Shown here in pieces: positions 91-60,600 of a DNA stretch of 64,000 nt. A model generated the notes under the pieces. It was not told the DNA's origin. It saw only the letters and a list, made by a program, of their open reading frames with translations, and did not search any database. The first letter of the stretch is position 1. Each line of letters begins with the position of its first letter. The stretch comes from Trebouxia sp. TZW2008 (taxonomy: Eukaryota; Chlorophyta; Trebouxiophyceae; Trebouxiales; Trebouxiaceae). Where the stretch lies: assembly GCA_002118135.1 (NCBI GenBank), contig BDIU01000025.1, forward strand, positions 62,001-126,000, in the 5' to 3' direction. The position numbers were made by a program, and so were the translations under genes.

Positions 91-3000
91 CACACAGGAA
101 GGGAAGCTCACTCTGCATGGCAAACAGGATCTCTACTTCACTGGCTTGTGCAAGGCGCTCCCCATGGATGTGGTCACTGGCCCCTGACAGCACAGCTGCT
201 GTGTGCAACCCACTCTTCAGCCCCACAATCTGCACAGCAGGTGCTTTGTAGCTCAACTGAAGGTGCGCACAACTTTGCAAACACAACACAGTGGCCCAGA
301 TGGCACAAATGCTTGCTTTGCTTGCCCTCTGAAACAAGGCTCTGACATGACAATCCAGATGCCATCCATGTTCAGTGCCAGCCTAGGTTTCCAGTTCACA
401 AGTCACCCGGCACAAGACAATGCTCGTGAACATCTGATTCAGCATGAGTCCAGGCAAAAGCTCTTGCCGATCATTCCGTCAGGTCTATATCCCAACTGTG
501 ACCATGCAGACGCCTGAACCGCCATATGCATACATGTGGCATTGGTGACATACCTCCAGCAGGCCATCATCAAAGATGGGCTTCTTCAGGTTCTTGACCT
601 GCTCTTCAGGCATGTGGTGGTCATGCAAGCCCCACAGGTCACGCCCGCCCATATACGTCTGCAGGTTGATCATCACAATAGCTCGCACGCTCTTGGGAAT
701 GATGAGATTCTCCCACTCTTGATCTTCCCCTCTTCTGAACTGCATCACCAGTGATCAGGTTGTCACAAGCCTGCAAGCCAGGGTGCTGATGCAGCAACAA
801 TTGAGCCCAAATGGATGCAGTCATCTCTTCAATGCGGAGACCTGAAGTCAGGACATTCTGCTTGTATGGCCATGCAGTGTGGGATCAAGTCACTGCATCC
901 TGGCTGCATGGTGCTAGTGAGTAAGGGATCTAACCTATAAGGACATTGCAATTGATAAAGCAGTCACCGCATGCTGATTGCAGTGACAAATTCCATCAGG
1001 AACACTTTGACACGAGGACAGTCTTCATGGCAAGAAATGTAGTCATCACAGCTGAAATTGATCTGGCTGTAATTTAGCAATGTTTGGTGTAACGGGCTCT
1101 GCACTCAGCTTGCTTACATGGGCAACACCCTTCTGCTACACATGTGTGATGCTGACAGCTGGGTCACCCATATGCTGGTGATCAAGACGTTTTCGAGGTT
1201 GTTCAAGCCAGGCTGCTGCTACAGGTATGGTCTAGGTTGAGTGCTTTGGGTCGTGTGATGTTCCGGCTGACTCGCTGCGCAGTCATTACATCAAGGAAGC
1301 ACGGCAGTTGTTGTGGTTGTGTAATGTTGAGGGCTGACTCACCCGTACGCTCTGGATCTTCCTGCAGAGGGGTTTGGCGCCCCACAGCCAGCCAGTGGCA
1401 GTTGCCTCGTAGAAGTACCAGCAGATGTTCTGCCACCGATGCTTTGCCAGGTGAGGCTTCTGCTTCCGTATGTCGTTGAACCTGCATCAAGCTTACCACA
1501 CTTCACGAGCAAGACTTGTCCATGGCGCAACAACTGAACACGTCTTCATCAAAAACAAAGGCCATAGAGGCTGAAGCGGCAGGAGTACAAGAGTGGGATG
1601 GCAAGGCATCTGTTCAATCAACGGAATATCTAGAGTCACATAAAACCAATGGCAAGTGTTTCCTGTGGCAGTCAGAATAACTTGTGTAAGCTGCTATTAA
1701 CTTGCACAGCTGGATTGCAGTCATACAATTGCAAGGCCACAAATCGTATTAACAATCTGCTTTGTGCATGAGTTGTCAAGAGGCCTGAACGCTGCCAAGT
1801 CACAAAATGCCAAATATGTTTGCAAGGGCATTTTACACACCTGTATGCAGCTTCAGCATCTAAGCCAACTGTGAAGTAGTATGTGAACTTCCCAGCACGT
1901 TTGCTGCCTTGTATGCTGCTGTCCTGCTGAATGTGCACAGCTGAGGGCAACTCATCGTCAATGAAAGGGGCCTGCTGGCTCAATGGGATATCTCGCCGCC
2001 TTTTGGAGCCCTCTGCCTGCCCATCATGTTGCCCATCAGCCTGCCCATTGTATTGCCCATTAGCCTGCCCATCGGCCTTGGACTGATGGGCACTCTGCAA
2101 GGAGTTGTGGGCGTACTGCTCTGGCAGGCCTGAGGACATGCTGATTGACCATAGATCCATGCCCCGCACTGTTGCATCCCCCACACCCTTGATCATCTGC
2201 ATATACAACCAACAAGATGTCATGCAGACTGCAACCACCCTGACTGCGACAGCCAGAATTTGCAGGCCTGAGGATGTGAGGATGTGCTGATGGACCAGAG
2301 GTCCATGCCCCATCTAGTTCCTTGATCATCTGCAGTTACGCTCATTGTTGTGTAAAGCAGACTGCAAACATCCTGATTGTGACGCTAAAAATCTTGCAGG
2401 CCTGAGGACGTACTGATAGACCAGAGATCAATACAAGGCACTGGTGTGTCCCCCATTTCCTTGATCATCTGCACATGACTTTTGCAGTCTTGTTTCAAAG
2501 GGGCAAAGTGCACTACGTATGACTTGAGTGCTTTGGCAGGATGCAGGTGTGCTTACATCGGAACATGATGCCTATCCCCAGGACAAGAGAACATTGCATT
2601 TATGCAGGACTCACGCAATAGGTGTGGCTCACAGTACTGACAATGCAGGTCTGCTTACATCAGGCATGGAGAGTGAGATGACTATTTTGCAATTAAGTCG
2701 TGCAAAGGACATGGCTTGAGCACTGAGGATGCAGGTTTGCTTACATTAGACATGGAGTGCCGGTCTTTGGTCCACAGCCTGCTGGCCTTGTGACCCCAGC
2801 CCAGATTGACTGACATGCCATTGCCTGTGCCCAGAGGAATCACAGCTGCTGGCGGTGCCGGCAGTATACCAATCTCCCTGCATGCGCAAGGCAACCTTGA
2901 GCAGTGCTGGTGCAGGTAAAGCCATGCCATTGCTGGTGTACAAAGGGATCACAGCGGCCGATGGTGCCGGCAGTATGCCAATCTCCCTGCATGCGCTAAA

Positions 3001-4870
3001 GTTGACAACACTGATGCAATTGGCAGAGGGCAACTGCTGGCATTCAAAACCCGGCCTAGGTTGACTGGCATGCCGTTGCCTGTGCCCAGAGGAATGACAG
3101 CTGCTGGTGGTGCTGGCAGTATCCCAATTTCCCTGCACGCGCAATGCTAAACTTGACACCACTGAAGCGATTCACGGCAGCTGCTGGCCTGGTGGCCCCA
3201 ACCCAGGTTGACCGGCATGCCTTCTTCTGTGCGCAGAGGAATGACAGCTGCTGGTGGTGCAGGCAGTATGCCAATCTCCCTGCATGCGCAATACTAGCCT
3301 CAGCAACCCCGATGCAGTTACCACAGTCATTTTCATCCCAGACTCCCCTGTATGCTCATTGTCGGACACAGCAACCCCGATGCTATGGCCAGAGTCAGCT
3401 GTGAATGATGCAAGAGACAGCATGCAGCAAGGCTGCATGACACCCAAGCACTGTCTGCAAAAGCTGTGTGCTGTTCAGCCATGTGTTGTGAAGGACAGCC
3501 TGATGCTGCGTCTATCCCATGCACTGACGTTCCTACGCAGCTGGCCATGAAGGGACTTCGCCCTTTGAAGAATTGAACATCTGCCAATGTCTGGTATGTC
3601 TGTCATCATCTCAGCTTGCACGCAAAAGACTGCTTGTATGATGTTGATGAGAGATATCTCAAACACTGGCAGATATTCAGATCAATTAAGGCTTCTAACA
3701 AAGGAGTGCTTGAGAGCTATGATGTTGGAATACTTGTCACGCATTGGCACATCAGCGGTTTCAGTTGCTGCCACATCAATTTGGCCTGGCATCTTGTCCT
3801 ACAAGGATGCATTCAACCTTCGCTGGCAGCATCAATGCTTGCTGGCAGAATCAAATGTTACTGGCAGAATCAGTCCTGATTGGTCAAAATGACAGGCTGT
3901 GCAAAAGCCAACTGTAGGTACCATGGTAGAGTAGTGGTTGCAAAGTCTGATGCTGAATCACATCTCACACATTGCCTTCATCAGGAGCGGCAATTGCTGA
4001 CACACTGCTGGCGTCTTGTTGCAACAACAGGCCAGCAGTGCTAAGGTCTTGCTGACAGAAGTGACAGGCTCTCACCCAATGGCCTGCAAAAGCCAACTAT
4101 AGGTACCATCGCCCCCAGCTGCCACCACTCTCAAGTTGTGTTTGATGTGATACGCCTTTTCGTCTCCCTCCTTGATGGCAGCGTCCAGATTCTGCCAGAT
4201 GGTCTTCAGCACATGGTCAGGCTTCTGCTTGGGCAGCTGGTACACCTGCATGGCGGAAGCTGTGCTTCATGACAGGCATGCAGCTAAGGCACCAGGATAA
4301 TGTGAAGGGCCAAGGGGGAAATTGTGCTGCAGACCAGGCTGAAACAGACATTCGACTTTGGCAATAGCTCTTTCATGAGGTTGTGACAAGTCCTGAGATT
4401 GCATGGAAACTTGTTATGCATGTGGCGAGGCCTACCTGAACAACACCGACTACCTGCCCAAACAGCTTCAGCAAAGCCTTGCCGTATTGGCCGCCTGACT
4501 TTGGATTGATGAAGACAAGAGTTGGGTGTGGCGGCAGCACACCAACATGCCTTGCTGTTGAATGGTCATGCTTGGGCAAATCATCCCGGGTTCCTTGCAA
4601 GTATTTGCTAGGCACGCTGTAGATCAGCAAATTGGGCTATTTCCTATGACCTTAGACAACACTCACAGGAAGCTGAAGCCGATGAATGCATTGGCCAAGA
4701 CAAACTCACTGGTAGGGCTGCCGCAAATCGTTGTCCAGGTGCAAGCTCTGCAAGAACAGAAAATTCGTGTTGAGATCCATGAGGTCTCTGAGTCACACAA
4801 CGTCGTCTTCACCTACCTCTGATTGCAGGTCGTCTTGAATTCCGTCCACTGCGTCGAACTCTTCCGGCAT
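1..4870 (-). CDS. Diacylglycerol kinase, plant-type, 3' end off the window
   Basis: Phosphorylates diacylglycerol to phosphatidic acid. Exons (minus strand): 4870-4817, 4747-4710, 4616-4436, 4245-4076, 2877-2745, 2196-1841, 1481-1343, 739-554 and 229-112. All phases join, giving about 458 residues before the left edge. The catalytic domain begins with VFINPKSGGQ (about residue 66), followed by the nucleotide-binding AAGGDGTYSWLL (about 133) and PLGTGNGMSVNLGWG (about 162). The accessory domain carries YYFTVGLDAEAAYR, FNDIRKQKPHLAK, NLQTYMGGRDLWG, FDDGLLE and GLKSGLHTA. There is no C1 domain, as in short plant DGKs, which are about 490 residues long, so little is missing. The start at 4870 is chosen because an in-frame TGA lies upstream with no ATG between. 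Introns are large and hold decayed copies of the exon 2877-2745 and of the start of exon 2196-1841. An insert rich in DGQ/NGQ repeats lies in exon 2196-1841. The last donor, at 112, is less certain. Confidence 0.9.
2119..2468 (-). repeat. Threefold tandem copy of a DGK exon start
   Basis: Three copies of an acceptor plus exon start follow each other. Each reads CAG then ATGATCAAGG, with exon starts at 2468, 2329 and 2196 (periods 139 and 133). The functional one is 2196, because it continues into the accessory domain. The copy at 2468 still encodes a similar peptide ending in SSGLQ. The copy at 2329 has shifted frame. The duplicated block also includes intron sequence. Confidence 0.85.
2745..3279 (-). 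repeat. Fourfold tandem copy of the DGK nucleotide-binding exon
   Basis: Four copies of the exon that begins EIGILPAPPAAVIP start at 3279, 3132, 2986 and 2877 (periods 147, 146 and 109), each behind an intact CAG acceptor. Only the 2877 copy keeps LGTGNG, GWG and a donor. The 3279 copy reads LRTEEG, the 2986 copy reads LYTSNG, and the 3132 copy keeps LGTGNG but loses the GWG. Three short copies of the exon's 3' edge and donor also lie at about 2541-2570, 2645-2670 and 2731-2755. Confidence 0.85.
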
Positions 4871-6382: not shown

Positions 6383-9300
6383 TCATGCAACCAGGATCTG
6401 TACCTGTATCTGCTTGCCTATTTGGTTGATGGCAGAAAGCAGCAATCGCTTCTTCTCCAGTCGGAATTGGATTGCAAGCTTCATATCGCTGGACAGCGGC
6501 TGACCAGCCTTGTCTAGTCCTAAGCTAAGGGCCTGTTGGTCTTCCTGTGGGACTGAAGGCCACTGGGATAGCAGCAAAGTGCAGACTGCCGCAATAGTCC
6601 TCAGTGACCGTACCTGTGGAGATCAGTGGCGCACATTGAATGTTTGATGGACCATATAACCGCATACAGGAGGAAGGGATAGTGTCCAGAATGACAGACT
6701 GACAAGAACATTGTGTATGACATAAAATACGGACATTCCAGGCAAATCAGGCACATCTTGCGCTTTGTCGGGAATGCTGGCCTCTGCAACTCGGTTTATG
6801 CATTTCATTCTTATCTCTCACAGTATATGAGTATATGAGTATACGAGCAGTGTATAGTCATCCACACTGCATCTAGACACTCATGCAAGCAAGCGAAACG
6901 GTGCATGGCAGCTGTGAGCTCTGTAAGGCCAACAGCTAAGCTGTATGGCATCATATGGCTGTGCGCTGCCACTCATGACTAACACTCATGTCACTTGTGA
7001 TGAACATGCGTGAGTCTGATGGGTACATAGCCACTGCCACTGGGTGGCACATGCGAGCGTCCTTGATGGCTGGTTGAAGGGCGGAAAACGCTACTGTTTT
7101 TCATGACTGACCTCATTGGCAGGGTTGAGGGGTATGCCCCAAGCCCCCAGCTTTGCAATTGACCCCAGCTCAGTTGGGTTCTTGCAATACAGCATTCTGA
7201 CTGCTGCCAGCAGGCGGGGGTCCACAGGGGGGTTCCCCCCTATGGCCACCTCCAGGTTGGCAGTGGGTCCCCACAGGTTGAGATGTGTCAGGGCTTGTTC
7301 CTGCCAGAGGGGCAGGCTGGTGCTGGAGGTGGTTGTGCCCTGCCCTTTGGTGGACCATAGGTGGGAGCTGTGCAGGTGAGCTACCTCCTTGGCAGCCTGT
7401 TGACATGCAGTGAGTTTCAGTGGCACTGCTTGCAAATGGCAAGCCCCACAGGTTGAGGTGCATGAGGGGGTGTTCCTGTCAAAGGGGCACCACCTTGGTG
7501 CTCAAGGTGGTTGTGCCCTGCCCTGGGTGGACCACAAGTGGGACCTGTGCAGGTGTGCCTCTTCCTTGGCATCCTGACTGTGATGTGGTGATTGCTGTTG
7601 TGGCACAAACAGTTTTGCAAGCATACAGACAATGCTTTGACAACTGCAAGAACCAAGAATACAAAGTCAGCATGAGACTGGACCAGTGAATCATCATACG
7701 TAATACTCAATACGCAATACATGATATGCAATACCCAGTATTTGGAAGTATGAATCACTAAGGTGCAGTGCAAATTGTGGAATACGCAATACGTTTGGGC
7801 CAATACGTAATACCCAATACGCAAGTATCATACAGTGTCAATCAATGAGATCAATAGCATGGTGTTTCACTGGACTGTACACCTACAAACAGACAGCCTT
7901 TGCCAAGATTTTTGCCTGGAACAGGAACAAAAGCGCAAAACGGGAACAAATGCTGGTTGCATAGGCAGCAGTGAACAGCCATGTCAACATATCAAGCTGA
8001 CACTGCATGTGTGGGCGAAGTTGTTGCAGCGCTTGCTGCAGAGATGTCAATATGACATGCTTGCAGCTAATTGACCCATACAGGCAAGGTAGCTCTCTAG
8101 TAGATCACCTCTGATGCATTGGCGTCAATGTGTTGTGCATGTCACACACTACACTGTACCATTATTTCAAACTCAACTACTTGCAACTCACATATGCCGT
8201 ATTGCGTATTGAATAGTGTGTACAGTGATCCACTGCAGCTCACCTCCAGCATCTCAATATTGAACCTTAGCTGAACCCTATCATGGGGATTGTTGTCCAC
8301 AACAAAGCCATAGTCCATCAACAGGAAATCATTGGGCAGGTTGCCATAGCTTAGCAGCAATGGCTGCTGCTGGGGTATATGCTCCAATGCCACTAGCTGC
8401 AGGCTCTTGTCTTTTTGCGGCTGTAACTTGCAGTTGGGGCTGAAGCTGTGGTTGCACATGTCAATAAGTGGCAGCATGGCCGCTGGCTGAGAGGGCCCTG
8501 CTACACGGAAAGCCCTTGAGGTCACCACTGCTAGTGCCCAACCAAGGGCATTGGCATCAATGAGAGTGCCAGCAAAGGTGTCTGCAGGGGTACCCGGGAG
8601 GGGTCGCAGAGCCCCCTGGGCAAAGTTGAGCAGCCAACGGCACCTCATTTGGACCTGCTGGCTGACTGGTGCATACTGGATGGCTTGCAGGGGTTCCCTG
8701 CCAAAGAACATGGGGATGCCTGGAACCCCCACTGGCAGGTTGCTGATGTACGGACTGAATCTGGAATCTGCACCTTGCACTCTGTGTGCCAGCACCTGCC
8801 AAATTCACACAGCTTGATGTTGGTCAATAACTGGACAGGTGACATGTTGCTTGTAGTCTGTCTACTGACTGCAACAGTGAGTGCATAATGATTATCTAGG
8901 AACTGAACTTGGAATCTGGGCCTTGCACTCTGTGTGCTGGCACTTGCAAAGGTTACCTGGCTACAAGGTGCACAGCAGCAAGTGCACAAGAAAGATGTAG
9001 GCACTAAAGCTAGAAGTTGTGCCTTGCACCTGCAAATGTTACATGGCTTGAAGTTGCGTAGTCACTGCGGCAGTGAGTGCACAAAGATGATGCATGGACT
9101 CAGTATAAACCGTGCCTTGCAAAATGTTACACGGCGTGAAACCGCCAGGGAACTGCAGCGAAACGGGTCAGCGGCACACTGGGCAGCTCACAGATGAGAC
9201 TGCTGTGAGAGCGCGCACGAAAGGCCTGAAGCAGAGAGCATCAATGCATGTTGTCTATTTGCTGCAGCAATGTGTAGGGTGTGCAGCTACAGAACGTGCT

Positions 9301-13848: not shown

Positions 13849-14050
13849 CTTTGCCAGGTAAATAACGACACTCGCCAACTGCCTTGAACACAGCTTGTCG
13901 CCAGCGTTGCCACCTGCGATTCATTTTGTTTTTACACCCGGGATATTCGAAGTTTTCCTTGACTAGCTTCTACAGCAGTTTCATCAACCTGCCTGCACAT
14001 CAAGTCCGCCAGAGTGCCTAACCGGATAGCTCAGAAGGCTCGCGCGTGAC
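13849..14050. promoter_or_regulatory. Short bidirectional promoter region
   Basis: Only 202 bp separate the divergent start codons of bL33 and the SKIP22-like gene, so both promoters and 5' UTRs must overlap here. Confidence 0.55.
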
Positions 14051-37372: not shown

Positions 37373-37410
<38 letters not shown>

Positions 37411-43400: not shown

Positions 43401-46400
43401 TAGCCTGTCAAGAGCTCTCGTTTCTGTGCCAGAATCCGGCTGTGCAGATGTGTGAGATGACTCAGAGCTTTCTGCATGGTTTGTGAAATTTGGTTGCATG
43501 TTGCTACTATGCAAGCAGGAGAGCTCAGTTTGCGTATGGCCTACATACCACTTGTATGTGTCCTGGGGAATTGTGTCAATGGGTTCTATTGTTACTGCCT
43601 GCATTGGTCATGTCAGATGGGGACGTTTCAAAGGGGCCAAGGTTGACTCACTGAACCACGTCATGCTGTTAAGATTGGGCTTATGCCGCTGCAACTTCCT
43701 GCATCTGCGTAGCAACAGAACAGCCTTAGCAATCCCCCCTGTGCCTCAAAAGCATATTTAGAGGCAGGTTTTGTTGACAGGGAAGAGCAGCGCAAATAGT
43801 TTTGCATGTTTTGTACTTGCTCAAGCAAACTGTTAGACCGGAGCTGATCCAAGCTCAAAATGTACGACGTGACATGACAATGGGTCACATTTGCTCAGGT
43901 GGCCGGGGTGCTCCTCTTCCAGCCCCTATGGCCCCAGTAAGGCAAGTGCTGCAGCCTAGCGTCAAGTTGCGGCCCTTCTTCTGGTCCAAGGTGCCTGCCA
44001 ACAAGGACAACATCTGGAGTCGGGTGCAGCCGCCTTTCCCTGAGCTAGAGAAGGGCCAGATGACGGCCCTGGAGCACCTGTTTGCCCAAACCGCCACCAC
44101 TATCACTCCTGGCAGGAAGAAGAATTCATCTGACGGTGTGTAAATTGCATCCTTACCAGAGCACTGCTCGGACTAATGCCTTTGCATGAGCAGCAGCTAG
44201 CAAATCAGCTTGCCTCTTGAGTTGCAGCACCTTGGTGTGCCAGTCACATGCATGCTGTGAGGGCATCAACATCTCAATCGCAAAGCCCTTCCAAAAGGGT
44301 TGAAACAACCTTTAGATTTGGCCTTTAATTTATCAAAGTAGGTAAGACACAATATAGGCTGTCACAATGCCGTACATGCACATGTCCTGCTGCGGTCTGA
44401 TGCAAAGCTTGTGTGCGGCATTCGCATCAGAAGAATGGCTGTGCAGGTGGGGTGACCCCTAGAAAAGCGGAAAAGATCAGTGTGGTGCCTCTGTCACGGG
44501 CCAACAATGTCTCCATCATGCTGACTCAGTTCTCGCAGTTCAAGAAGGGCCCACAAGAGATCCGCCGCGCCGTTGTGACTGGCGAAGGGCTGTCCTTGGA
44601 GCGCCTGGCATTGCTGCTACAGGTGGTCTCCACACTGCACACCTGTATGCCCAAGCTGTTCACGCTGAGCTTTGCATACTGCCTGTGAGCAACTTCATCC
44701 TTGCAACTGATGTGCCCAGCACACATAGGGCTTTCAAAGGTGGTGCACTAGCATACAAGCTGCAGAGACTGAAGCTGTTGATTCAAGGGCTTGAGCTGTC
44801 TGCATATTTCGTCACACTTGACAAGACATTGTAAGATGTAGCACAACATGGCTGCCTGCAGCATCTGTCTTTGACCATGAATCAGGAGCTTGCATGGCAT
44901 GCAGATTGCTCCCAAGGAGGATGAGCTGAAGGCATTCCAGGCTTTCAGGGGCACATATGATGACCTGAGCCCGCCAGAGCAGTTCCTGTATGTCATGGCC
45001 AGTGTGCCACGCCTCAATGACAAAATCAATGTCCTCATCCTGATGCACCAGTTTGAGGTCAGTCTGCTGCAATGTCTCTCACATGTCTTGTACCATCTGT
45101 ACTTCTGTGACACTCAAACTAAACATTCCAGTCAAATTGCTGATTACACTGGTCACCGACACAGTAATGCAGCATGGTGCAAGAGATAGCTTTGTCAGGC
45201 TGGCTGGAAGCATTGATTTTTCTGGCAGTGATCACAATGTCACTTGCATCTTCGTGCATGTCATGTTTTACAGCCCTTGACTGACATCTCACAACGTGAT
45301 ACCATTGTTGCAGTGTTCTGCAAGCAGTGCAGAAAGTTTGACATGAATTTTGCAGGGCTTTGTGAGCAGGGCCAAGGCCAGCATCGACAGTGTAGACAAG
45401 GCGTGTGGGCAGTGCTCTAACTTTGATGCATCGTTGCAGGGTTTTGTGAGCAACGCAAAGGCCAGCATAAACAGTGTAGACAAGGCGTGTGGGCAGTGCT
45501 CAAACTTTGATGCATCTTTGCAGGGCTTTGTGAGCAGTGCAAAGGCCAGCATAGACAGCGTGGACAAGGCGTGTGGGCAGGTGGGCAACAGCCGCCGCCT
45601 GCAGGAGGTACTCAGAGCTGTGCTGGCTGTTGGCAACGCCCTCAACACTGGCACTGCCAGGGCCTCTGCAGATGGAGTCAAGCTGGAGTCTCTCATGAAG
45701 CTGGCTGATGTCAAGGTAGCTTTGCACTGCATGCCTGATGCAAAACAAGCTGGTCTGCCTAGACAGGACTCATGCCACTCACCCAACCCTTGTGCTGGCA
45801 TGTCTGTTGTTTTTGGTACATGCAACAAGCAACATGTGCTTGTGATGTACAAGTGTCCTTGCAGAGCACAGCTGCATCATGTCTGTCACTGTGCAAAGCT
45901 GCCAATCAGCACCATGAAGCCGTCAACAACATGTGTAGCAACCTTTTGCACATCAAGTCTCTGGGCGCATGTTGCTGCAAATGTCAAGCAAGATTATGGC
46001 ATGACGTTGCATTGACACTTGCCCTTTTTGCAAATCAGCTTAGTATGGCAGGGGCAATACGTGCTGTCGATAGTGAAGGAATCGCATGGCATAGCCCGCA
46101 AGGACACAACTTGTCACTGCTTTGAGTGGGCTCTTGCCTGCTACAGGTGACAAGGCCCACATCAGCAGCAGCGGCAGCAACAGCAGGCAAGGCCAGTCCT
46201 CCCAAGGATGGCAAGGATGACACCCCCAATGATTCAGAGGCCGACCCCCCCAGGCCTGAAGTGCCCCCAGTCACCACCCTGCTGGAGTTTGTGGCCTGGG
46301 TGGTGCTGACGGGGCACGCTGTCGGCAGCAAGGCTGTTGAGGACTGGAGCAAGGGGCGTGGAGGGTACCTCATTGACGAGCTGCATCAGGTCAAGGAGGC

Positions 46401-47470: not shown

Positions 47471-48213
47471 TGTGTTGAGAAGGTTCTTAGACTTTCTGAT
47501 ATTTGTGTGCCTTGTACTCTTGTGTCTTTGTCCAGCAAACATTTTGATTTTGACCCTCAGGGCCTTTTATGCAGGCTAACAAATGTACGTTCAGGCATTA
47601 AGCGACTACAAGTTGCCTGTGTTCATTGAGTTTAGGCTGATGCTGCCCAACAAACTTACTACCATTCCGCCATGTCATGGACACACTCAGATCTGAATTT
47701 GTTCTCTGAAGTTCTTAATATGTCTGGAAAGACAGCTCAGCAGTACTCTACAAGTGGCAGGCAAGTAGACATGCTGCAAGTTGCAAGAACACAATGACGA
47801 TGAAAGTCACACTCTTGGTATTCTGTGCCAATTCCCTCCACGTACCTAGCTGGGCCTCCTGAGCCTGTCTAGCACACGTTTAGAATGAGGACAACCTTTT
47901 CCTCTGATGTGCAAGCTGCCAAGGTCTGACTGCTCACGCCCAGGAGCCCTTACTCACCATTTACGTCACAAGGCTCCGTGTGCCCTGCGTTGACTGCTTC
48001 GTGACTTAGCGCTTGACAGCTCGGTCGTGCGAGGTCGTTGGCAGGCACGTTGGCCGCACAAGTCAGGGCAATTTTGCACATCATCCATTGAACGGCAACG
48101 TGCCTGCTTGTGACGCTGCATCATCTTCTGACGTCTGTTTGATCAAAACGTAAGCTAGCTTGTCGCAAGCCTTGCGCGCAAAACCATCAAAGTGTCCCTC
48201 ATTTCTGCGAGCC
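47471..48213. other. Intergenic, formin to DENN gene
   Basis: 743 bp between tandem genes. Expected to contain the formin 3' UTR and the DENN promoter; no gene seen. Confidence 0.5.
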
Positions 48214-51200
48214 ATGTTCAAGAGCTGCTTCGTGGCTCGAGTGGCGGTTGAGAAGATTCGAAGTGTGGAGCTGTTTTGTACGTTCGATGATCCTCAAACC
48301 CTCGCAGCTGGTCCCCTTGACCTGCCACCAGCACAGGCCCTGGGGGGCTTTTGCTTTCCTTTGGGATCAGACAATGTCACGCCAAAGGAGTACATGGCTC
48401 CTGAGGTACAATGCCATACTCCCCTGCACTGTGGCAGCACTCAAGCAAGCCACACATGCGGTGGACACTTGGGACACTGCTGACGTTTTATGTATGTCCT
48501 CACTTGCAGGAGTACTCCTTCACATTGACAATGGGAGATGGGTCAAGACTACATGGCTTCTGCAGGCATGATACATCGAACTGCTGCTGAATACCTGAGC
48601 TTTTTCTCAAACTTTTGCTTGTACAGGAGCTTTCTGCCTCCAAGGCCGGCAGCCACACTTACTCGCACAAGCAGCAGTATGCGCTATCCTCAAGTGCTGT
48701 GCATAATCAGCCAGCATCCCTGGTTCTCCTTTTACTACAAGATCTTGCAAGTCACAGAGCAACTGCTGAAGCAGGACAATGTGCTCAACACCTACAACAG
48801 CAAGCAGTTGGCACCTAACCACCCAGCCAGCCTCTTCTTGACAGACTTGTGCTATCAATGTCCCCAGACACCTATTCCTGGCAGGATCATCAGGTACTTA
48901 CAACATGCTCACGGCTTCCACAGCATGGCTTGTTGGCAGGTGCTTTTGAAGCGTGTGTAGCCACGCACTCATTGTTTTGTTCAATACGCTTGCGAGTCAG
49001 GCTTTAGACTCAAATGATTAGGTATGTACAGATGCAATCATCTCCATCCAGTCTGTCAGAGACTCTTTTGAACCAACTAAATGTGCAAGGCACAAGTCCT
49101 TGTATCAGCAACTCTGAGCAACCTAAAGCAGGGTCAGACAGAGCAGGGCAGCTGAGCAGATGCATGCAGTGCAGGGTGCAATATCCAAAGCTGGACTCCC
49201 CCCTGAGCATCAGCCCTCCAAAGAGGATAGGTTGGACTGAAGGTGCAGATCAGCTGCTTAGCAGGTCAGCTCTGCATCAGCCTGCATGACCAGCTTGCAT
49301 GATGCAAACAAGATAGCGTGCTTCACCTTGAAAACATTGCAATTGTGTGGCATTGAACACAGCATTCCTTCCATGTCCTACAAGCAGCCTTGTGATGTGT
49401 TGTGCATCCACAGTGGCAGCACTGCCTGCTCTTACTGCAATACAGGCACTGCTATCAAATCAGCTGCTGTACAAAAGACCTGATAGCATATTCAGCGAAA
49501 TGTGGTGATTGAAACATGGATGCAGTCTTACAGACAGCCTTGGTCTGTTGCTTCAAAAGAATCAAGCAGGTTTTGTGGGCATCAGTATCAGGTTGTCTGC
49601 TAATGTTGCTAGCCTGCCTATGCTGCAATGTCAGTCAGCATTGCGGAACGCGGCATGTGGGCTTGATGCAGTCTTGTTCTGCAAGCTATGGGCGTACTCC
49701 TGCTTTTGAAGCTGTCTTGCATGCTTTCAAAGCAGACAATCCCGCTGGCTCTTTTTCCAAGGTCTGACAAGTGAAAAGCCAGACCATCACTTGTTTGTTG
49801 CCTGCAGCTCTGATCAGCACATAGAGCTAGAGATTCCACCAGACTTTGGCAATGGACCCTGGAACGCCGGCATCCCCTTAGCCCGACTACTATGGCATGT
49901 GCCAGTGCAAGGGCTGATGACCCTGCTGGCTGCACTGCTGCTGGAGCGTAGGGTCATCCTAGTGGCTCAGGATAGGGACAAGGTGTCAGCAGCAGTGCAT
50001 GCTGCAGCAGCCCTGCTGTACCCTTTCCGCTGGCAGCATATCTACCTGCCTCTACTGCCCATTGCTCTCAAGGTCAGCAAAGCTTGGTGCCCTTCTTTCA
50101 TGTTGTGCGGCTGAGTGCATGCACTACAAATGTGTCATATCAAGCCTGAGCATCTGACGTTGACAGACGCAGCCGACAGCGTTCAACTGCAATTGCAAGT
50201 ATGCCAGTGCACAAAGGCATCTGTCACAAGGTTTAGCAAGCACAGCAATGTTCAAGCGGGGGGTTCTGGTCATGAACTCTGGGTCAAGCTGTTGGACATT
50301 TGTGCAGCGCCTGCAGTCTTCTCGCAGACCTGCAGACAAGCTGCTGGCAAAGTTGGCTGTGGCTGCTCCCATCAATTTGTCCCTAGGAAGACTTCTCAAT
50401 ATGTACTAGCAACAGCTAGTACATGAAGCATCAATTGCATGTGTGCTGCACATGTGGACAGGCCTACTTGACGGCGCCCATGCCATTAAATAATACTCAA
50501 GGCATGGTGTGTCATTCTTACACGCGCCGTCGTGTGTGGGCAGGACTACTTGACGGCGCCCATGCCATTCCTAATTGGGCTGCAAGCCAGTCTGCTGCCT
50601 AGCCTGAAGCAGCTGCCCATGGACGAGGTCAGCCTGATAGACCTGGACCTGGGCACCTGCCAGCCCCCTCCAGGCTCCCCTACAGACGATGCACGCCATC
50701 TGCCCTGGGCAGACCGACTCCAAGCTGCCCTACAGGTCTGCTTTTGTCCCGAGTATCACCCAGCATATTTGTCTTGTTATGTGCTCTCAACCTATTGCTG
50801 ACAGACCTGGACCTGGGTACCTGCCAGCCCTCAGCAGGTGGCGGGCGTCATCAGGCTCCCCTACAGACGATGCACGCCATCTGCCCTGGGCAGACCGCCT
50901 ACAATCTGCCCAGCAAATTTGTATAGCACGCATATAAGCACCTGCTTCAGTGTTATTCTTTGTGAAGCAATCTGCAACCAGATCAGGAGTAGCAGGTTCT
51001 CTGCCATGATATCAGCAGTCTGGCTATCTGCTTTTGCATTCGCATGTATGTAGGTATTTGCTTGTGATTGTATGTATGTATGTAGGTATGTATGTATGTA
51101 TGTATGTATGTATGTATGTATGTATGTATGTATGTATGTATGTATGTATGTATGTATGTATGTATCTGCTTTTGCATTCGTAAATCCAGCTCATCTTGCT

Positions 51201-54200
51201 CCAATGACGTGCAGATCCTTTGTCTTTTGCCCCCGACCTTCTGCAGATAAGGCTGCTGTTACTAGTCCTTGCAAGTGTGTTAGCTTGCAGGGCTTTCAGA
51301 ACTGCAGACCGCCACAATGCCCATGGCCATGCTGAGCTTGAAGAGCTGTCAAAATTGCAATCAATGAAAACGCTTATGGACATGCTCACAGGATGTTGCT
51401 CAAGCGGCGATGCTTATGAACATGCTTACAGGATGATGCTTATGCAGCAATGCTTATGGGACATGCTGCAGGTGGTGTATGATGGTCTGCGCAGCCCCAC
51501 AGAGTTTGAGAGCACCCCAGTCATTGCTCATGTGCTGCAAGAGTACTTCCTGCGCCTGCTGGGCCGCTACAGGGAGTTCATCCAACCTGAGGGCACCCCC
51601 CAACAGCCCTCTGCAACTGCAGATGACTTCACTGGGCCAACCCTGCAGAGGTGAGACTGAACAAGCATTTTGATAAGCAGAAACGTCCCAATTGCCTCAC
51701 TCTGGTGATATGCGTGAAAGGCATGACCCACTTGCACCGCAATCGTGCTTTTCATTGCCGTGCGTTGTCTGTATTTCAGCAACTATTGTGTGTTTCCTGC
51801 ACCTGAAAGGCCTCACAGGAACGAGGAGTTCTGTTTCTAGGGGCAGCATGTCAGGTTGTGCAGTCTTCCCCCTTGTTTGGAGCATCAAAGGGCTACTGTG
51901 AGCCACTGGGATGTTTGCCTGCAGGAACAGCATGTCAGGCAGGGACGGGGAGATCAGGGCGCGCCCCTCCAGCAAGCAGAGCCCCAAAGCAGCCACTGCC
52001 GGCCGCGCTGCACCAGATGATGATGGCTACCTCAAGTAGGCTCCAATCCTCTTTCCTCAATTGATCAATGATTGCATCACACTGCTTCTGACAGTTATTG
52101 CTGCCTTTGCACAAGCCTCTACATGCGATCTGTAACTGAAGCAATTCAGCAGTGCCTGCTATTGCACTGTGGAGGCGTGTAACTTCATGGTCGTCTGATG
52201 TTTTGACACATGTGCATATCGTGATCTGTCTTGCATGTTGCTGCTGATCTCCATGCCGCTCAGCAGCTTTGTGTACAGGCACCATTGATGTGATCCCCAA
52301 CTGCTGCTATACAAATGCCTCAAAGCACAAGGTGTTGTAGTCCTTTGGCATTGGGCAACAGGGGCCTTCCAAACATAGCAGACACCCAAGCAAAAAGTTT
52401 CCTGAGAGTCAAGCATTGCTCCAGCTGCATCATGCAGAGGATAGCATAGTTTTGGGGAAAACTTTGGTGGGCTAGACTTTCCAATGCCATCTTGAGCCCT
52501 GGCATCAAGCTTGATTATATGTTGTGTTGGCTGAGTCTGTGTACGCGAACATGAGCAAGGCTTGGTGTGCAGGGGTGATGGTTTCCAGTTTGACCACCAA
52601 TCCTTTGTGGAGAGCCAGGGGCGCAACAAGAATGCACAGCAGTTTCTGAGGCTGTTCAGGCACAGCCAGCTGTACGAGGTCTTCATCAATGAGCGCCTCA
52701 AGCTGGCCAGCCAGCAGTACAAGACAGATGATAAGTTTGAGAGTAAGGTGTGCCTCTTGATCTTTTGTCAAGATCTTTGTGTTAGCCGCTTGGTTGGAGG
52801 ATCTAGGCTTTCTCTATGCAAGGTGACTCGTGCACAAGGCAGCCTATCTTATGGCACAAGGCAGTCGGCTATATGCAAGGCTTGGCTGTGCATCAGGCAG
52901 TCTTTTGTCTGACTTTCAAAAGTCGAATATCAGACGTCCCTACACAGACACTGAGAACAAGCCTGCCTGGCAAGACAGGACTAGGCCCACACATACCTAG
53001 CACATGTGCCGGACTGTGGAGTTATGAGCATCACACTCAGGCAATTCTTCTCATCACACACGCAATCTTCCTTATGCAAGGCTGGGGCGCATGATTGGCG
53101 TGTCACCACATTCTGACAAGCATTTAAGGCTGTCTTCTGCAAGCTGCTGCTTGGGTTTTGTAGCATGGTGATCTTGATTCAGCTCCACATGAGTTGTGTG
53201 GCATAATCAGGATGCTTGATTATTAGTGAACTAGTCAGTCAAGGTTGTTGGCACAGTCAGTGTGTTACCAAGATATGCATGGTGTGCAGCATGCAAACTT
53301 GTCTCCTGGATGTCAATGCCGACCTCATCCATCAAACAATTGCAAAGTGGAGATAGAGCAAGACTAATACCATAGAAATTAGGTTGCAGCAGTACAGCAT
53401 TGTGGTGCTGCGCAACTTTTGCAAGGGGTTTTTTTGCTGCATCTTGCAGGTAGCAGGAACCTGCAGCCATTGAGCTGTCAATGTTTTGCTTCCTCTTTGT
53501 CTCTGCCTTTGTGTCTGACCAGCAGCCTCAGGCGCTGTGTTGCAATGTGCAGGTGACAAAAGTCTGCATTGACTTACTTGTCAAGCTTTTGTTTGTTCCT
53601 GCTGGTTGCTGCTTTCATTATGTACCAGTAGCTACAGGCGTCCAAGTCCAAAGTGCAGACAGCAGAAGACTGCAAACACATGCTGATCATTGATGTTTCT
53701 CTCCTTGTCTCTGCCTTGACCTCTTTATGGCTTAAATGACTGCTTGTGCCAATTGCAGGTAGCAGAAGCATGCAGCCGCAGGGCACAAAGCTGGAGTACG
53801 TTTGCCAAGGTGGGGCAAGCTGTGCAGGGCAGCGGCTCCTCTGTCAGCAACCTGTCTGACCTCATGCACAAGGGCCGCAACATGGTCAAGGCAAGCTCCC
53901 ATTTATTTATTTGTGTTCATGCATTCTAATTGTATGCTAGGCAGGCTCAGCAGGCCCAGCTAGCTACGTACTGGAACAATCAATTGCCTCCAATTTGGTC
54001 CTGTGCTGACCTGAACCATTTGCACTGAGCATGGAGCGAAGTGAGGTCCTTGTTCACGGTTGTTTGCCAAGTGTATTGGGCTTGCCCCTAGCCTAGCAAG
54101 CTCCCACTGCATCCCGCACCCCTGCTCTAGAGTAACGGAATGTGCAAAATTCGCAGACTTTTGAGCACCCAGTGCTTGACAACTGATAAGTTATCAAGCT

Positions 54201-56923
54201 GATCATCGATCAGGGCGTTCCACAAACCCTCCTGCAGTGATGCTTACCCTGGGCATAAGTTTTCTGCAGACTGCATGCCCTCCACAAAGTAGACCAATTG
54301 TGGTTCTAAAGGCTTTGACTATGCATACGCATCCCACAGTTTGCACTGAGCAAGCGTCGCTCTGGAGGCTGTGCACATGATGGTACATATCTCAATTTGC
54401 ACAAGGCAGCACTCACTAAGCCAACAGGCCTGTAGCTCTTGCGTGCAATGTCAAGGCATTCTGTACAGCCAAAATTTGCATTTGTGTTGGTAAGACTCAA
54501 CAGGCATTGCTGCCCCACTTTTTCACCATGCTGAACCCTGTAATCCTGTGGGATTAAGGTTTGGATGTTGTTACTAGTGTCATTAATTTGGCATATTTAA
54601 GTGACACATGCTTGAATTTGCTGCAGACATTTGCAGAGAAGCACCGGTTGACTTCAGAAGATGGGGAGCTGTTCCCCTCGCGAGAGAGCAGCTTTGTACG
54701 CAGCAGTGGCAACTCATTTGGAGGGCGATCTGGTTCCTCCTTCACTGGACGCCTGCCCTCCAGGACAGGGCCCCCTAACCTGCAGCGCTTCTCTGGAGCT
54801 TCAGGTACATTCAATGTTCCAACGCCCAGGCACTGTGATGTTGCAGCTCACTCAGGTGTTGGGATTGTGGCATCTGTTTACCCAACGTGGTAATAAGCAC
54901 CTAACCTGCAGCGCTTCTCTGAAGCTTCAGGGATCTTTCATGCCCCAATGCCCAAACGAGAATGATGGCTCACAGTGATGTGGCTGCTCAGTTGGCAGGT
55001 ATGGGCCGCTTTAGCTGCAAAGCTTCTGGAGCTTTGCGTGAGCTCATGCCTCAATGCCCAAGCTCAGAACAATGTTGCACAGTAATGTTGCAGCTCAGTT
55101 AGCTGTTGAGGTCTGGGCAAGAGGCGGTATGTACCAGCCAGCCCGCACCGCATCCCAAGGTGTTGCAGATGTGCTCTACCCTTCAGCCACAAAGCTCAGA
55201 ATCATCAATCATGCCTTGCAAGCAATGCCTTGAGAAGAAGTACAAAAAGGATACTCTAGTCAACAAGGCTCGGTGTGTGTGGCATTAAACTGCATTGGTA
55301 TACGTCGGTCAAATGTGACGCAGCTAGCTGTTACAGTGTCTGCACTTGGATGACAAGAGGTGCTTTTATGCTGCTGTCAGCTACTGCATATATCTTATGG
55401 CAACATGCAAAGTGTCCCTCGTCGCGCGGCTGCCTATTTATACTTGGAAGCAATGTGCTGCAGTTGGGTTGCACTCCAATGACGGACATCAACACAACAG
55501 CTCGCCGCGGGACGTCAACATGGTGAAGGCTCAGATCAACGGCATCATGCATGAAGACTCCCTCCCCTTCTACGATGAGACCCCTCCCCAGTCGGCAAGC
55601 CCTTCCAGGCAGACCTCATCCACCCCAGCCAACCCCCAACCCCTCACAAGGGCGCACAGCCATACCCCTCAAGCCTCACAGCTGCATGCACCCAGCCCAA
55701 AGGGGCGCTTCTCTTTTGCGGGGAACCCCAGCCGCCTGTCAACTCAGGGCTCGTCTGTTGACTTGGGCGATCTGGGCATCAGTAGCTCAACAGGCATGTC
55801 AAGAGCCAGCTCAAAAGACTCAGGTCATATTGCAAGTCAGGGTGCCAGTCCTTATGCGTCAGGCTCCTGGCAAGGCAGGCTGAGCAGGTCAACAGGCGAG
55901 CAGCAGCAGCCGGCAGCAAGGCATGCACAGAGAGTTGCATCACGCCATGGCTCAGATCAGCAAGCCTCTGCTTACTCTTCCATAGAAGCCATGCTGAGCA
56001 GCATCCCTGAGAGCCTCAGCCTGCCCAGCATGCCCAGCATACCCAGCGTGCCCAGCATGTCAGAAATCGAGCGCTCCATGCAGTCAGGCTGGAGCTCCTT
56101 CACAGGCAGCCTGGGTCTTGCCCCTGCTACCACCCCCCAAGCAGCTGCAGTCACCCCTTCTGACTGGACTGCTTTTGCTGAGGTCAGCAATCCAACAGCC
56201 AGTCAGCCAGCATCTACGGCAAACGCAGTCTCTAGTGCACCTTTCACAATGGCTCAGCAGCAGCCAGAGGCATCGTCTTCTGCCTGTGTGTTAGGCTCAT
56301 CACAGCAGCGGGGGAGTGTCAGTGGGCTAAGTTCAGGGGGTCAGTCGCCACGTAGCATGCAGCCGCCGCTACCGTCCCCTCGCAGGAAGTCTATAGGACT
56401 GCAGGATATAGATCCTCTAGCAGCTGCGAAAGAAGCAGCAAACGTGCCACTTAGAGCCATGCCTTCAATGCGGCAATCGTCCCAAGCAAGGACAGGTAGT
56501 GGGCCAATGGCACAGCTCAGTGCAGACTCAACAAGAGCGGGCAGTGGGCCAATGGGTCAATTCACTTCAGATGCAGCATCAGCCTCAAGTAGCTTCAGCA
56601 GGTCTACAGAGGCACATGCGTTGCCTGATGGTGCCCCTGCATCTGGTGTAGATATAAGCCCTTCACATAAGTGGTCTGATTTTGCTGATGTAACTTCAGC
56701 AAGTGAGCAACAAGGAGTCAGCCAGAGCACCCAAGCACAGGGTGCTGGTGCAACACAGCAGAACAGTAGTCCTGCTAGTACTGATCTCTGGGCACAATGG
56801 AGCTTGCCAGTCACAGCTCAGGGCGACTCTGTTAGTGCTAACGACAACAAGGACAAGTCAGATGCCTCTCATGCTCTTGCTGCCCTATCTTTGTCCGGTC
56901 AACACTCACTTCTTGATCTGTGA
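48214..56923 (+). CDS. DENN-domain protein, probable Rab guanine-nucleotide exchange factor
   Basis: DENN proteins activate Rab GTPases in membrane traffic. Exons: 48214-48405, 48510-48565, 48627-48893, 49808-50072, 50544-50735, 51472-51650, 51925-52035, 52573-52747, 53759-53890, 54627-54804 and 55464-56923. They join in phase to 1068 codons. The upstream DENN part has GGFCFPLG, YMAPEEYSFTLTMGDGSRLHGFC and YPQVLCIISQHPWFSFYYKIL. The core has LLAALLLERRVILVAQD, YPFRWQHIYLPLLP and YLTAPMPFLIGL. The downstream part has FLRLLGRYREFI, FVESQGRNKNAQQFL and YEVFINERL. The C-terminal 500 residues are Ser/Gln/Pro-rich and look disordered. Introns after 48565 and 53890 use GC donors. I start at the ATG at 48214, because the longer frame lacks an earlier ATG. 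The small exons 51472, 51925 and 53759 are the least certain. Confidence 0.88.
50401..50424. repeat. Short perfect inverted repeat in a DENN intron
   Basis: ATGTACTAGC, a 4-base loop AACA, then GCTAGTACAT. Confidence 0.8.
50462..50930 (+). repeat. Copies of both edges of DENN exon 5
   Basis: The exon start (CTACTTGACGGCGCCCATGC) is at 50544 and also at 50462, 82 bp upstream. The exon's second half, encoding SPTDDARHLPWADRL, recurs downstream at about 50799-50920. One exon therefore has duplications at both edges. Confidence 0.9.
51069..51165. repeat. (TATG)n tetranucleotide microsatellite
   Basis: About 23 tandem TATG units with two interruptions, in the DENN intron before exon 51472. Confidence 0.95.
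54770..54950 (+). repeat. Copy of the 3' edge of DENN exon 10
   Basis: CTAACCTGCAGCGCTTCTCT, a Gly/Glu codon and GCTTCAG occur at the exon end (54804) and again at about 54901-54931, where the donor GT has become GG. A weaker trace lies near 55016. Confidence 0.8.
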
Positions 56924-57643: not shown

Positions 57644-60600
57644 CTGCGGGCGCGATGGAACTCCACATGCAGCATCTTGATCTGTCCCCAGCGGTGCTGT
57701 GCTCGCTCAGAGGCCGCTTGTTGCTCAGCGCTCCTGATCTTGCCCTTAGGTGGAGGTGTGCGGGCTGACACTTCAAAGGCTTGGTTGAAAGATGTTGCGG
57801 GCCATCGCAAGGCTAGCACAATGGCTGACATGTCCCCATGCACGTCCCTGCACCCAAGAATGCATGCACATCAGACACTTGCAGCAATTCAGACGATGCG
57901 TAAAGTGATTGCAAATATGAAACTGCACAAGACTTCCATGTGCAAAACGTCAGATTTGGCTTCATGCGACCTGCCAAATTTGCTCATGTGCCATGTACTT
58001 GTTTGCATCGCTGCATGTAATTATATGCCTCAACGCCCACAGAAACAGCACATGCATGGCCAAATATCTGCAAAGCCATAATGCAATTTACCTGCGGGTG
58101 AGGCCTGTCAGAGGGTCTTTTCTGAGGGGAGCTACAGACTGCCTTTGTGTGAGGGGCAGGCTTCTCAGAGTGTCCTCAGAAACTGCCTGCCTTAGCTTGT
58201 GTATCCTGCATGGCCCACTGACGTTCTCAATTTCCCTGGCTGCTCGTGTAATGAGACGTCAAGTCAGTTGGAGCTATCTGAGTTGATGTAAGACTCATTC
58301 AGACAATCAGTCGACAACACTGCTTTCATGTAGCTTTGAAGGTGATGCAGCGCAGAACAACCAGCACTGTTAGCCGGACTGCTGATTGGCTGGCACACCT
58401 TGTGACTTTTGCAGCAACCTTCTGCATAGCGTACAGCACGAGGGACTCCGCAGCATTGGCGGCAGCTGCGTCTTTGCTTGGATAAGCCGTGCTGGCAGGC
58501 TTTTGTGCAGCTGCTTGCAGTGGGCTGTTGGTCACGTCACACAAGACAGCCACTGTTGGAGGAGCCTGACTCGCGTGTGCCTGCACAGAATCACTTTGCA
58601 ATCATTGTCATAACAGAATTTGTGCTGCAGCCCATCATGTTGCTGAACAGTATGCTTTGTGCAGAGTATGCGTGCCATGAGCACACACAGGATCCAGGTA
58701 AAGGTGATTCTACTTGATCATGTACGTTTGCAGTGCCGATTGCTCACATGCCCACAAGAGGTGCTGACTTGCTTCCAGTTGGGAAGGCTTCAGCAGATTG
58801 GCCTGTCATGAGGGCAACTGCTTTAGGGTGTGCATGCATGTATACATTTGCCCTACTGCTGTGATAGTTCTTTTGGCAGCCTTTGGATATGCCCATGCAT
58901 TGGACGCACTGAGATCAGCAAAGTCCAAGCTGAGGGCCACAACGCCAGGCAATAATGGGGCGTAATTTTGAGTTGTACAGTAATTTCTTGATGTAACGAC
59001 ACTCAATACAAGGACATTCTTGATGTAAGGACAATGCAACTGGGAGATGAACACTGAATTCTGTCTACAGTGGCACTTCTGGGCAAGGACAATTTGATGT
59101 AAGGACAATTTTCTTGGTGACCAGTGCAGTCGTCATATGAAGAGATTACTCTGGTGCAATTGCCAGGCAGCGTCATCCATCATATCTGATGTTACAAGCC
59201 TTGCATCCCACACGTCTGCGCAAAGCCTTTCTGAACAGCGCTGGCGCTCTGCTGTGCAAGCTTGTCACATCATGGGCAGCAATGACAGGCGGTGGGTAGA
59301 GTGTGACCTTGAGGTGAAAGTGCAGGCGCAGGGCTGCATCATGAGGCCTGAGGCACATGCAGCTTCTGCTTGAAAGCATAAAGTTACCCAAGCAGTGCCG
59401 ATTGCTCACAAGCGATGCTGACTTGATGTCAGGTGGAAACAACTTGAGCTGATTGACCCTTGACACAGGCAAACCTTGCATCTCAGCAGTCCACAACCCA
59501 AGCACAGGAATGCCAGGAAGTGGTCAGAGTGCGACCTTGAGGTGGAAGTGCAAGCGCAGTGCAGCATCATCAGGGCTGAGGCAGTCCCACAGCCCTTGGG
59601 AGGCCACCACCAGGTGCTCATCTCCCGCATGCACCCGCTGCTCCGTTACCTGGGCTGTGCTGAATGCTGTGGCACCTGGGAACTGCTGCTTGGACCCTTG
59701 CTGTTTGTTGAATGCATCTGCATAGGTCATAACAACCATAGCGTCAGATGAAAAGCTCTAGTGTAGGTGCTAGGTGTGCATGATCCAGGTTTAACCTTGC
59801 CAGGCAGACACAGCCTTGTGTTTGTGAGATTGACTCCTGAACAAGCACTGATGCCAGAGTTGCGTCTATGCAGCCAGCTTTAGTTTTGCTCAACTGCAGT
59901 GGCATTTGTAAGTACAGGTCAAGCACTGCAGCACGGCATCCCTCATTGTACACCCACGTTGTTCGTTTGAAGGCATGCAGCTGCCAATTCTGCTGACAAC
60001 TCAACACACCTGATAGGGCCCTTCTCTTGAAGCGGCCTGCTCCTATGCAATTCATCTGCTGCTCTTCTCCCCTGCACACCAGTAATCTCCATTACACTTA
60101 CATTGTCCGATCAGATAACACAGACATTCCATGCGATGTTTACATGCTGCAGCCTCTGCTGATGCTTGAATCATGCACAGATCTCAACTGCTTTTGCTCA
60201 AAGAGGTTTCCAGAATGACAATGATGGCGTAGGGGGTTCTTCCATTCATGCACATATATGTGCAAAGGCAGTGACGCTGAGGGCAGATGGGGCACCTGTC
60301 AGCATGGCCAAGCACCAGGACTTGGGTACGTTGGACAGCAAGGCCATGGAAGAGCTGCCCAATGACAGGCTGCCCTAGCTGGCCCACTTGAGCCGCCGAT
60401 AGCTTTTCAGTCTTGAAATCCAAGTACAGCACAACACCAGCAGCAGCTGACACAGCACGATCCTGCACGTGTGAACTATGATGATTGCCACAATTGGGTG
60501 CAGCAGCTGTTTTGGCAGCCCTTGTGTTTGTTCATGCACTGGCATGTGCATGAAAGGTCTGCACTACATGCTGATAAGCGTACCAGGGGTGACAAGTTGG

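Follow-up and report, generated by a model that had tools for sequence, protein, structure and literature searches.

Dense tandem duplication of exon edges in a genome of the green alga Trebouxia

Results

Exon-intron junctions in the apparently lichen-forming green alga Trebouxia sp. TZW2008 are often accompanied by tandem copies of themselves, made up of the exon edge, the splice site, and some of the intron. The pattern was seen in a 64,000-nucleotide stretch of contig BDIU01000025.1 (positions 62,001 to 126,000 of the forward strand, referred to here as the window), part of a 68.5-Mb assembly of 527 contigs (GCA_002118135.1). It was also seen across a 304-kb sample of eight contigs, consisting of the window and 240 kb from seven others, where we carried out the self-alignment that the first-pass annotation of the window had proposed as a check. 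Within that sample, the pattern is real, dense, and genome-wide. We lean toward the view that it arises by ordinary local tandem duplication, with selection and splicing acting as a filter and decay following.

Self-BLAST was run in 11.5-kb pieces, and hits were merged into arrays at an E value of ≤1e-4. Pairs with a period below 40 or above 600 bp, low-complexity pairs, and pairs more than half overlapping an accepted array were dropped before counting. The window gave 56 repeat pairs, 50 of them direct and no more than 1.5 kb apart, and 30 merged local direct-repeat arrays. The full sample held 137 arrays (30, 18, 21, 30, 18, 4, 5, and 11 in the eight blocks), or about 4.5 per 10 kb, which would scale naively to some 31,000 in the whole genome. 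Density differed among the 40-kb blocks, from 1.0 per 10 kb (L019-L022, C154) to 7.5 (L011-L014, C178). The quartiles of the array period were 108, 138, and 177 bp, with 100 to 140 bp the commonest range and most periods between 60 and 250 bp. Identity between copies had quartiles of 75, 81, and 86% and ran from 69 to 93% between the 5th and 95th percentiles; the copies span a range of ages, as the earlier description of decay from near-identical to faint had implied. Local hits summed over the eight blocks were 279 direct and 9 inverted, and shuffled sequence, with one shuffle per 20-kb piece, gave none, which rules out simple chance as the origin of the arrays. Copies reached at least 0.85 of the period in 62 of the 137 arrays (full-length) and were shorter in the other 75 (truncated).

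The window had been said to contain about twenty duplicated exon edges in at least six genes, on both strands, with periods of about 80 to 230 bp and two to five copies. An edge was counted by hand in the alignments where an extra copy carries the splice site or stops at or near it, and there are 22 such edges, in the DGK, SET, HERC, formin, DENN, and PP2C-like genes; both strands are affected, and the periods and copy numbers are as claimed.

Gene models came from our own ab initio two-strand hidden Markov gene finder, trained on the window and the additional 240 kb from sequence alone. It converged on a CAG/GTRAG donor and a TGCAG/G acceptor and predicted 473 introns with a median length of 254 bp and exons with a median of 113 bp. 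Nine of 10 exons given from the window had a Pfam match (DAGK_acc, SET, RCC1, HECT three times, FH2, and DENN twice), the sole one without being exon 29677-29886 of the HERC-like gene, and all four further sequences matched as well (PP2C, L33, FAA hydrolase, and DAGK_cat). Some of the predicted exons are decoys, that is, extra copies that misled the gene finder. Since decoys can do so, the most coding-like copy of each array was kept, the others were shuffled, and the genes were predicted again, giving a decoy-masked set.

The arrays are concentrated at predicted junctions. With unmasked models, 86 of the 137 overlapped a junction against 63.2 ± 5.2 under circular shift, and 5 were intergenic against 19.9 ± 4.3. 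With decoy-masked models, the kept copy spanned a junction in 72 arrays, compared to 31.8 ± 4.9 under a simple shift null and to 38.5 ± 5.2 (maximum of 54 in 300 shifts) under a fairer null that also picks the most coding-like copy. Under the fairer null, the remaining classes were exon-internal (23 against 34.3), intronic (23 against 29.8), intergenic (13 against 24.6 ± 4.8), and mixed (6 against 9.7). Copies are thus commoner at exon edges than random shift gives, and the absence of such an excess, which the first-pass annotation had named as a refuting outcome, was not what this sample showed. Of 900 predicted junctions, 84 carry an array, roughly one in eleven. The introns are also longer, as the first-pass annotation had proposed: those with an array had a median of 378 bp (n = 103) and those without a median of 246 bp (n = 345), where random placement of arrays would give 331 ± 20 bp.

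It had further been claimed that the working copy is always the one nearest the exon body, the last where an acceptor is duplicated and the first where a donor is. Scored by machine, the rule held in 36 of 41 unannotated cases among truncated, mostly two-copy, arrays and in 62 of 102 among full-length arrays, where inner copies have neighbors on either side. It also held in 49 of 61 masked arrays with a single junction, and one exception that we inspected, at 28628, arose because masking had kept the decoy. After a tandem duplication over an acceptor, the last copy is the only one still attached to the exon body, and after one over a donor it is the first; the rule follows from this geometry under any mutation, we have accordingly discarded it as a clue to mechanism. 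The rule does imply that splicing would use the exon-proximal of two similar sites, and from the predicted genes we infer that this is the working site. Exon definition would favor an exon-proximal splice site. When all three copies at the formin FH2 exon were left in the query, the Pfam FH2 match started at residue 50, just ahead of the third copy, and the HECT profile runs unbroken over exon 33598-33818 from the last copy on, the decoys having been left out of that query.

Decay within the decoys was examined from the BLAST columns alone. Exactly one junction lay in the kept copy of 61 of the 137 arrays, and 50 of these were usable, their alignments covering the junction, 24 or more exon bases, and 8 or more codons; 42 obey the direction rule and 8 break it. 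The 42 gave a pS of 0.288, a pN of 0.108, and a pN/pS of 0.38 (interval, 0.29 to 0.49). Purely neutral change gives 0.79, and a neutral decoy beside a constrained exon is expected to give about 0.43 (0.79 × 0.55, with omega assumed to be 0.1). The eight rule-breaking arrays gave 0.62 (0.41 to 1.0). Gap events in decoys were frameshifting in 14 of 16 cases, and the decoys in the examples that we read were partial exons, usually lacking a second splice site. Among decoy acceptors, 57 of 68 retained the splice core, as did 42 of 60 decoy donors, about what neutrality predicts for t of 0.1 to 0.2. Over the same range, 47 of 68 decoy acceptors scored like real sites, where 0.42 to 0.63 would be expected under neutrality, while decoy donors did no better than neutral (24 of 60); we set this contrast aside because some predicted donors sit in decoy exons invented by the gene finder. 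Most decoys thus look unconstrained in frame and mostly neutral, although some may be partly constrained or refreshed through gene conversion. That decoys serve as alternative exons is at most a suggestion: most gaps shift the frame, though stop codons were fewer than expected. One array outside the window, at 8570-8874 of L011 (C178), has two copies that differ by 14 synonymous and 4 nonsynonymous changes over 40 codons, and both may be real exons.

The process had been described as continuing. In favor of this, a junction array in the window (22208-22827) is 95% identical; against it, only 16 of the 137 arrays reach at least 90%. The formin FH2 array was absent from the read-through open reading frames (ORFs) of 8 of 12 relatives, where one frame is readable; seven of the eight have at least 37 residues upstream, and in one the frame stays open across all of the intron before the exon. 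The array is thus lineage-specific in the frame read; the ORFs of the remaining four begin at or within the exon and are uninformative. A homologue search with the HERC ORF at 26804-27565 gave no match at an E value of ≤0.001.

On the minus strand of the window, the DGK gene has the acceptor of exon 1841-2196 duplicated over 2131-2432, with decoys at 2277-2432 (ATGCAG/ATGATC against CTGCAG/ATGATC). Exon 2745-2877 of the same gene is affected at both edges, its donor with a decoy at 2633-2671 (array 2633-2757; 85% identity over 39 bp, GTAAGC retained) and its acceptor, by self-alignment, with several upstream decoys at a period of about 109 bp (2779-3296), where the protein matches DAGK_cat when it takes one copy. 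Also on this strand, self-alignment of the SET-domain gene shows the acceptor of exon 8244-8795 with a decoy at 8894-8950 and older copies reaching 9140 (8746-9140), and the PP2C-like gene, identified by its PP2C domain, has the probable donor side of exon 59524-59717 copied to 59277-59355 (59277-59583; 84% over 79 bp). A 23rd site, outside the 22, lies in an uncharacterized gene on the minus strand, where exon copies of about 134 bp stand 175 bp apart (7269-7576; 81% identity).

The HERC-like gene, on the plus strand, has many duplicated edges. An RCC1 exon edge is present in 3.8 copies of 163 bp at 22193-22827, which, at 95% identity, are the most alike of any junction array in the window. 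The 3' end of exon 23489-23644 is copied to 23729-23792 (23581-23792; 86% over 65 bp), and the homology ends at the exon end. Acceptors are duplicated at exon 24273-24599 (decoy 24139-24224; array 24139-24314; 73% over 86 bp), exon 26208-26406 (decoy 26017-26114; array 26017-26281; 89% over 98 bp), and exon 28826-28996 (decoy 28628-28761; array 28628-28947; 86% over 134 bp). In the last of these, the sequence tggcagGAGCAG is shared at 28628 and 28814. The donor side of the exon starting at 26843 is present in 2.6 copies of 120 bp by self-alignment (27027-27345), with one predicted intron equal to one period, and the donor of exon 27847-28017 in 3.7 copies of 137 bp (27937-28444), with GTAAGC donors in several of them. 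The exon starting at 29677 is copied at its acceptor (decoy 29461-29563; array 29461-29774; 79% over 103 bp) and on its donor side (decoy 29973-30069; array 29808-30069; 74% over 99 bp). Two HECT exons have duplicated acceptors: 30812-31003, with a decoy at 30588-30698 (30588-30909; 84% over 113 bp), and 33598-33818, where self-alignment gives decoys at 33092-33557 with a period of about 129 bp (33078-33679). At 27027-27345 and 33078-33679, the repeated site CAG/GT could serve as donor and acceptor alike, and the predicted introns have the length of one period, which makes stepwise (recursive) splicing conceivable. An intron region at 31882-32929 is unlike the other arrays in combining several direct copies (offset by about 209, 449, and 658 bp) with some inverted copies of the same sequence.

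The formin and DENN genes are likewise on the plus strand. In the formin gene, the acceptor of exon 40661-40855 has decoys at 40419-40470 and 40483-40613 (40419-40746; 81% over 133 bp), the copy length being about the period, and self-alignment of the FH2 exon acceptor at 45324-45580 shows a unit of about 84 bp in three copies at 87% identity, the last being the working copy. In the DENN gene, a DENN-domain exon, 50544-50735, has its acceptor copied at 50453-50487 (50453-50569; 94% over 35 bp) and its 3' part copied to 50798-50911 (50634-50911; 80% over 114 bp). The donor of exon 54627-54804 has a decoy at 54900-54954 (54774-54954; 84% over 55 bp), and the acceptor of exon 55094-55159 has one at 54938-54996 (54938-55103; 78% over 60 bp).

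Other features of the window include a TGTA microsatellite of 24 copies with 97% matches (51069-51165) and a CAG repeat of about 28 units over a predicted exon (37344-37432), where runs of alanine and of glutamine occur in the predicted protein. Three far matches were found in the window, among them an 82-bp direct match of 80% identity between 8-89 and 59069-59150, 59 kb apart, and an inverted one of 48 bp between 47840-47887 and 53922-53969. Scans with Rfam at the gathering threshold and a tRNA search returned nothing in the window. Its G+C content is 48 to 56% and near 50% over most of its length; published Trebouxia genomes are given as 63 to 74 Mb with 49.6 to 51.1% GC in the available text of two papers (PMC11523091, PMC12712428). 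A ribosomal L33 gene was identified by Pfam and is, in our reading, of the plastid type. Among the best 120 of 3,041 matches, the hydrolase encoded at 34764-35384 (minus strand) has 14 relatives at 77 to 97% identity, and its matches in the Trebouxiophyceae Coccomyxa, Myrmecia, Asterochloris, Botryococcus, Elliptochloris, and Symbiochloris, two of these genera being taken from JGI labels, are at 50 to 57%. These features would fit Trebouxia or a close relative as the source.

Discussion

A new kind of process is not required to account for these arrays. Short local tandem duplications, mostly of 60 to 250 bp, would occur often in this genome. Those within coding sequence or holding a whole exon would mostly be purged by selection, whereas a unit straddling one splice site would be harmless if splicing takes the copy that adjoins the exon body. 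The mRNA and the protein would then stay the same, and the intron would gain one period. The other copy would be left as a decaying decoy, an exon edge with its splice site, and repeated rounds would bring some sites to three to five copies. Constraint on the working exon would keep the exon half of a decoy recognizable for the longest time. As to the mutational origin, replication slippage or flap misprocessing is a guess. A genome-wide search with the decoy unit at 28628-28813 matched only itself and the neighboring copy, and one with a spacer matched only itself.

A number of observations fit this explanation poorly. Random units among harmless placements would fall at junctions, in introns, and in intergenic DNA in the proportions 0.35:0.37:0.28, and we observed 0.67:0.21:0.12. 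Part of the difference comes from the longer detectability of junction arrays, an advantage of about 1.1-fold over all ages taken together and of roughly 1.2- to 6-fold among old arrays, where counts are small. This leaves a junction excess of roughly 2- to 3-fold, for which formerly shorter introns, misannotation, or a genic bias might account. Among the predicted junctions, duplication also affects more acceptor edges (54 of 451) than donor edges (30 of 449). Young arrays are scarce, the class of at least 90% identity falling below a constant-birth-rate simulation. Decoys hold 5 stop codons against an expected 15.4, and pN/pS in truncated arrays is 0.31 (0.23 to 0.43), below the 0.50 or 0.59 of simulated ones. 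At identities of at least 84%, 37 of 47 arrays are truncated (shorter than 0.85 of the period), while simulations of simple tandem duplication with neutral decay gave 24 of 289, 13 of 235, and 20 of 181. The intron flanks by the junction are clearly above mismatched pairs in only 8 of 24 truncated arrays. The main misfit is where homology ends in truncated arrays: it extends over a median of 9 bp of intron and 73 bp of exon, whereas simulated truncated arrays measured alike gave 21 and 57 bp, or 19 and 52 bp with more indels, and the plain model predicts the direction of this asymmetry but not its sharpness. The junction excess, the sharp ends at splice sites, and the shortage of stops leave appreciable room for a biased or exon-bounded process.

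Part of this misfit would be met if duplication itself were biased to transcribed or exon-edge DNA, through transcription-replication conflicts, R-loops, or exon nucleosomes, with the same filter and decay. The surplus of junction arrays and deficit of intergenic ones under the fairer null, the excess that persists past detectability, and the preference for acceptors all point this way, and yet the excess depends on our own gene models, which are built from sequence only; introns were probably shorter at the time of duplication, which would push harmless duplications to junctions, and, relative to the harmless positions open to them, intron-only arrays (23 for 0.256) are about as dense as intergenic ones (13 for 0.191). 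We regard such a bias as rather doubtful. The sharp ends suggest something else, namely, that many copies are exon-edge segments template-switched into the adjoining intron, with unrelated spacer between them and a boundary near the splice site. Truncated copies are 34 to 133 bp long (5th to 95th percentile), most arrays of high identity fall short of their period, few two-copy arrays with identities of at least 84% have the exact length, and the spacer matches neither flank strongly. Set against this, residual homology remains: spacers match the expected flank weakly, yet on average better than they match others (mean rank of 0.65 in 34 cases), and the intron flanks by the junction are 0.57 identical in the 24 truncated arrays, with mismatched pairs at 0.50. 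The same flanks were 0.69 identical, again against 0.50, in 18 full-length arrays and clearly above mismatched pairs in 13 of them. By calibration, the mean flank identity of truncated arrays is about that of decay to their synonymous distance, although homologous flanks mixed with unrelated ones could give the same mean. Moreover, the copy lies in the intron beside the duplicated edge in 36 of 41 cases, where free insertion would place about half of them there, and template switching seems to us unlikely.

The shortage of stop codons and the low pN/pS of truncated arrays could instead mean that many decoys are retained as alternative exon ends, recursive splice points, or splicing decoys, whether through selection or because gene conversion from the working exon refreshes them. 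The surplus of decoy acceptors that score like real sites and the few arrays that look constrained in both copies, such as that at C178 8570, agree with this. The frameshifting gaps, the neutral showing of decoy donors, and the partial exons that usually lack a second splice site do not, and we consider retention improbable as a general explanation. Misjoined tandem reads would give near-identical copies, and the median identity of 81% marks the copies as distinct sequences; for diverged arrays an assembly artefact is ruled out by copy divergence, and overall it is hardly credible. The boldest reading, which we would entertain only tentatively, is of a mutation process favoring exon edges or transcribed DNA that adds duplications of about 100 to 150 bp over splice sites at thousands of places, so that introns would ratchet up in length and latent splice sites accumulate, part of the copies being exon ends cut at the splice site.

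The first-pass annotation knew of no name for the pattern at this density. Neither the density nor the junction-spanning form was found described among the open-licence papers that our searches listed, but intragenic tandem duplications that affect introns are already known (Gao and Lynch 2009, as cited in PMC4974935). As in internal gene duplication, which may take in splice sites and introns (as cited in PMC4974935), the copies here are direct, local, and in the same orientation inside one gene; the difference is that most arrays lie across a single splice site that was already there and add length to its intron, at the density given above. Tandem genomic duplication is treated in a review of intron gain (PMC3443670, in its available text). 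The accessible account of the potato RdRp gene has the same geometry, a duplicated intron-exon edge, but there the copy is used as a new intron and exon (PMC4974935), whereas here the copies appear to be skipped. Predicted introns equal to one period, with both ends in homologous places, numbered 5 against a shift mean of 0.7 and maximum of 5, and a few individual introns here could qualify as born by tandem duplication.

Tandemly duplicated, mutually exclusive exons also place neighboring copies of exon sequence in an intron, as outlined in the text available of PMC9013439; the copies here are partial, mostly have one splice site, and are mostly frameshifted where gapped, although a minority may qualify as mutually exclusive or cassette exons. 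The direct repeats near intron borders in the accessible part of PMC11782384 likewise lie at exon-intron borders but are 4 to 30 bp long and compare the two ends of an intron, while the copies in our truncated arrays are far longer and lie on one side of an edge. The spread of similar sequence over many genes that marks Introner elements was not found with the one decoy unit and one spacer searched genome-wide. In the text available of the Trebouxia genome papers (PMC12712428, PMC11523091), "tandem" and "exon" are absent and "intron" occurs once, in a reference, and the available text of the Coccomyxa genome paper, considered as a possible earlier account of the pattern, has no description of it.

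Intron growth is usually attributed to transposons and drift. In this alga, growth by local duplication can be read stepwise, in copies of many ages. The arrays offer a natural experiment in how the cell chooses between two similar splice sites, how fast short tandem duplications arise, and where latent splice sites come from. The pattern is directly testable in Trebouxia because PacBio genomes and RNA evidence are reported for six of its lineages in the text available of PMC11523091.

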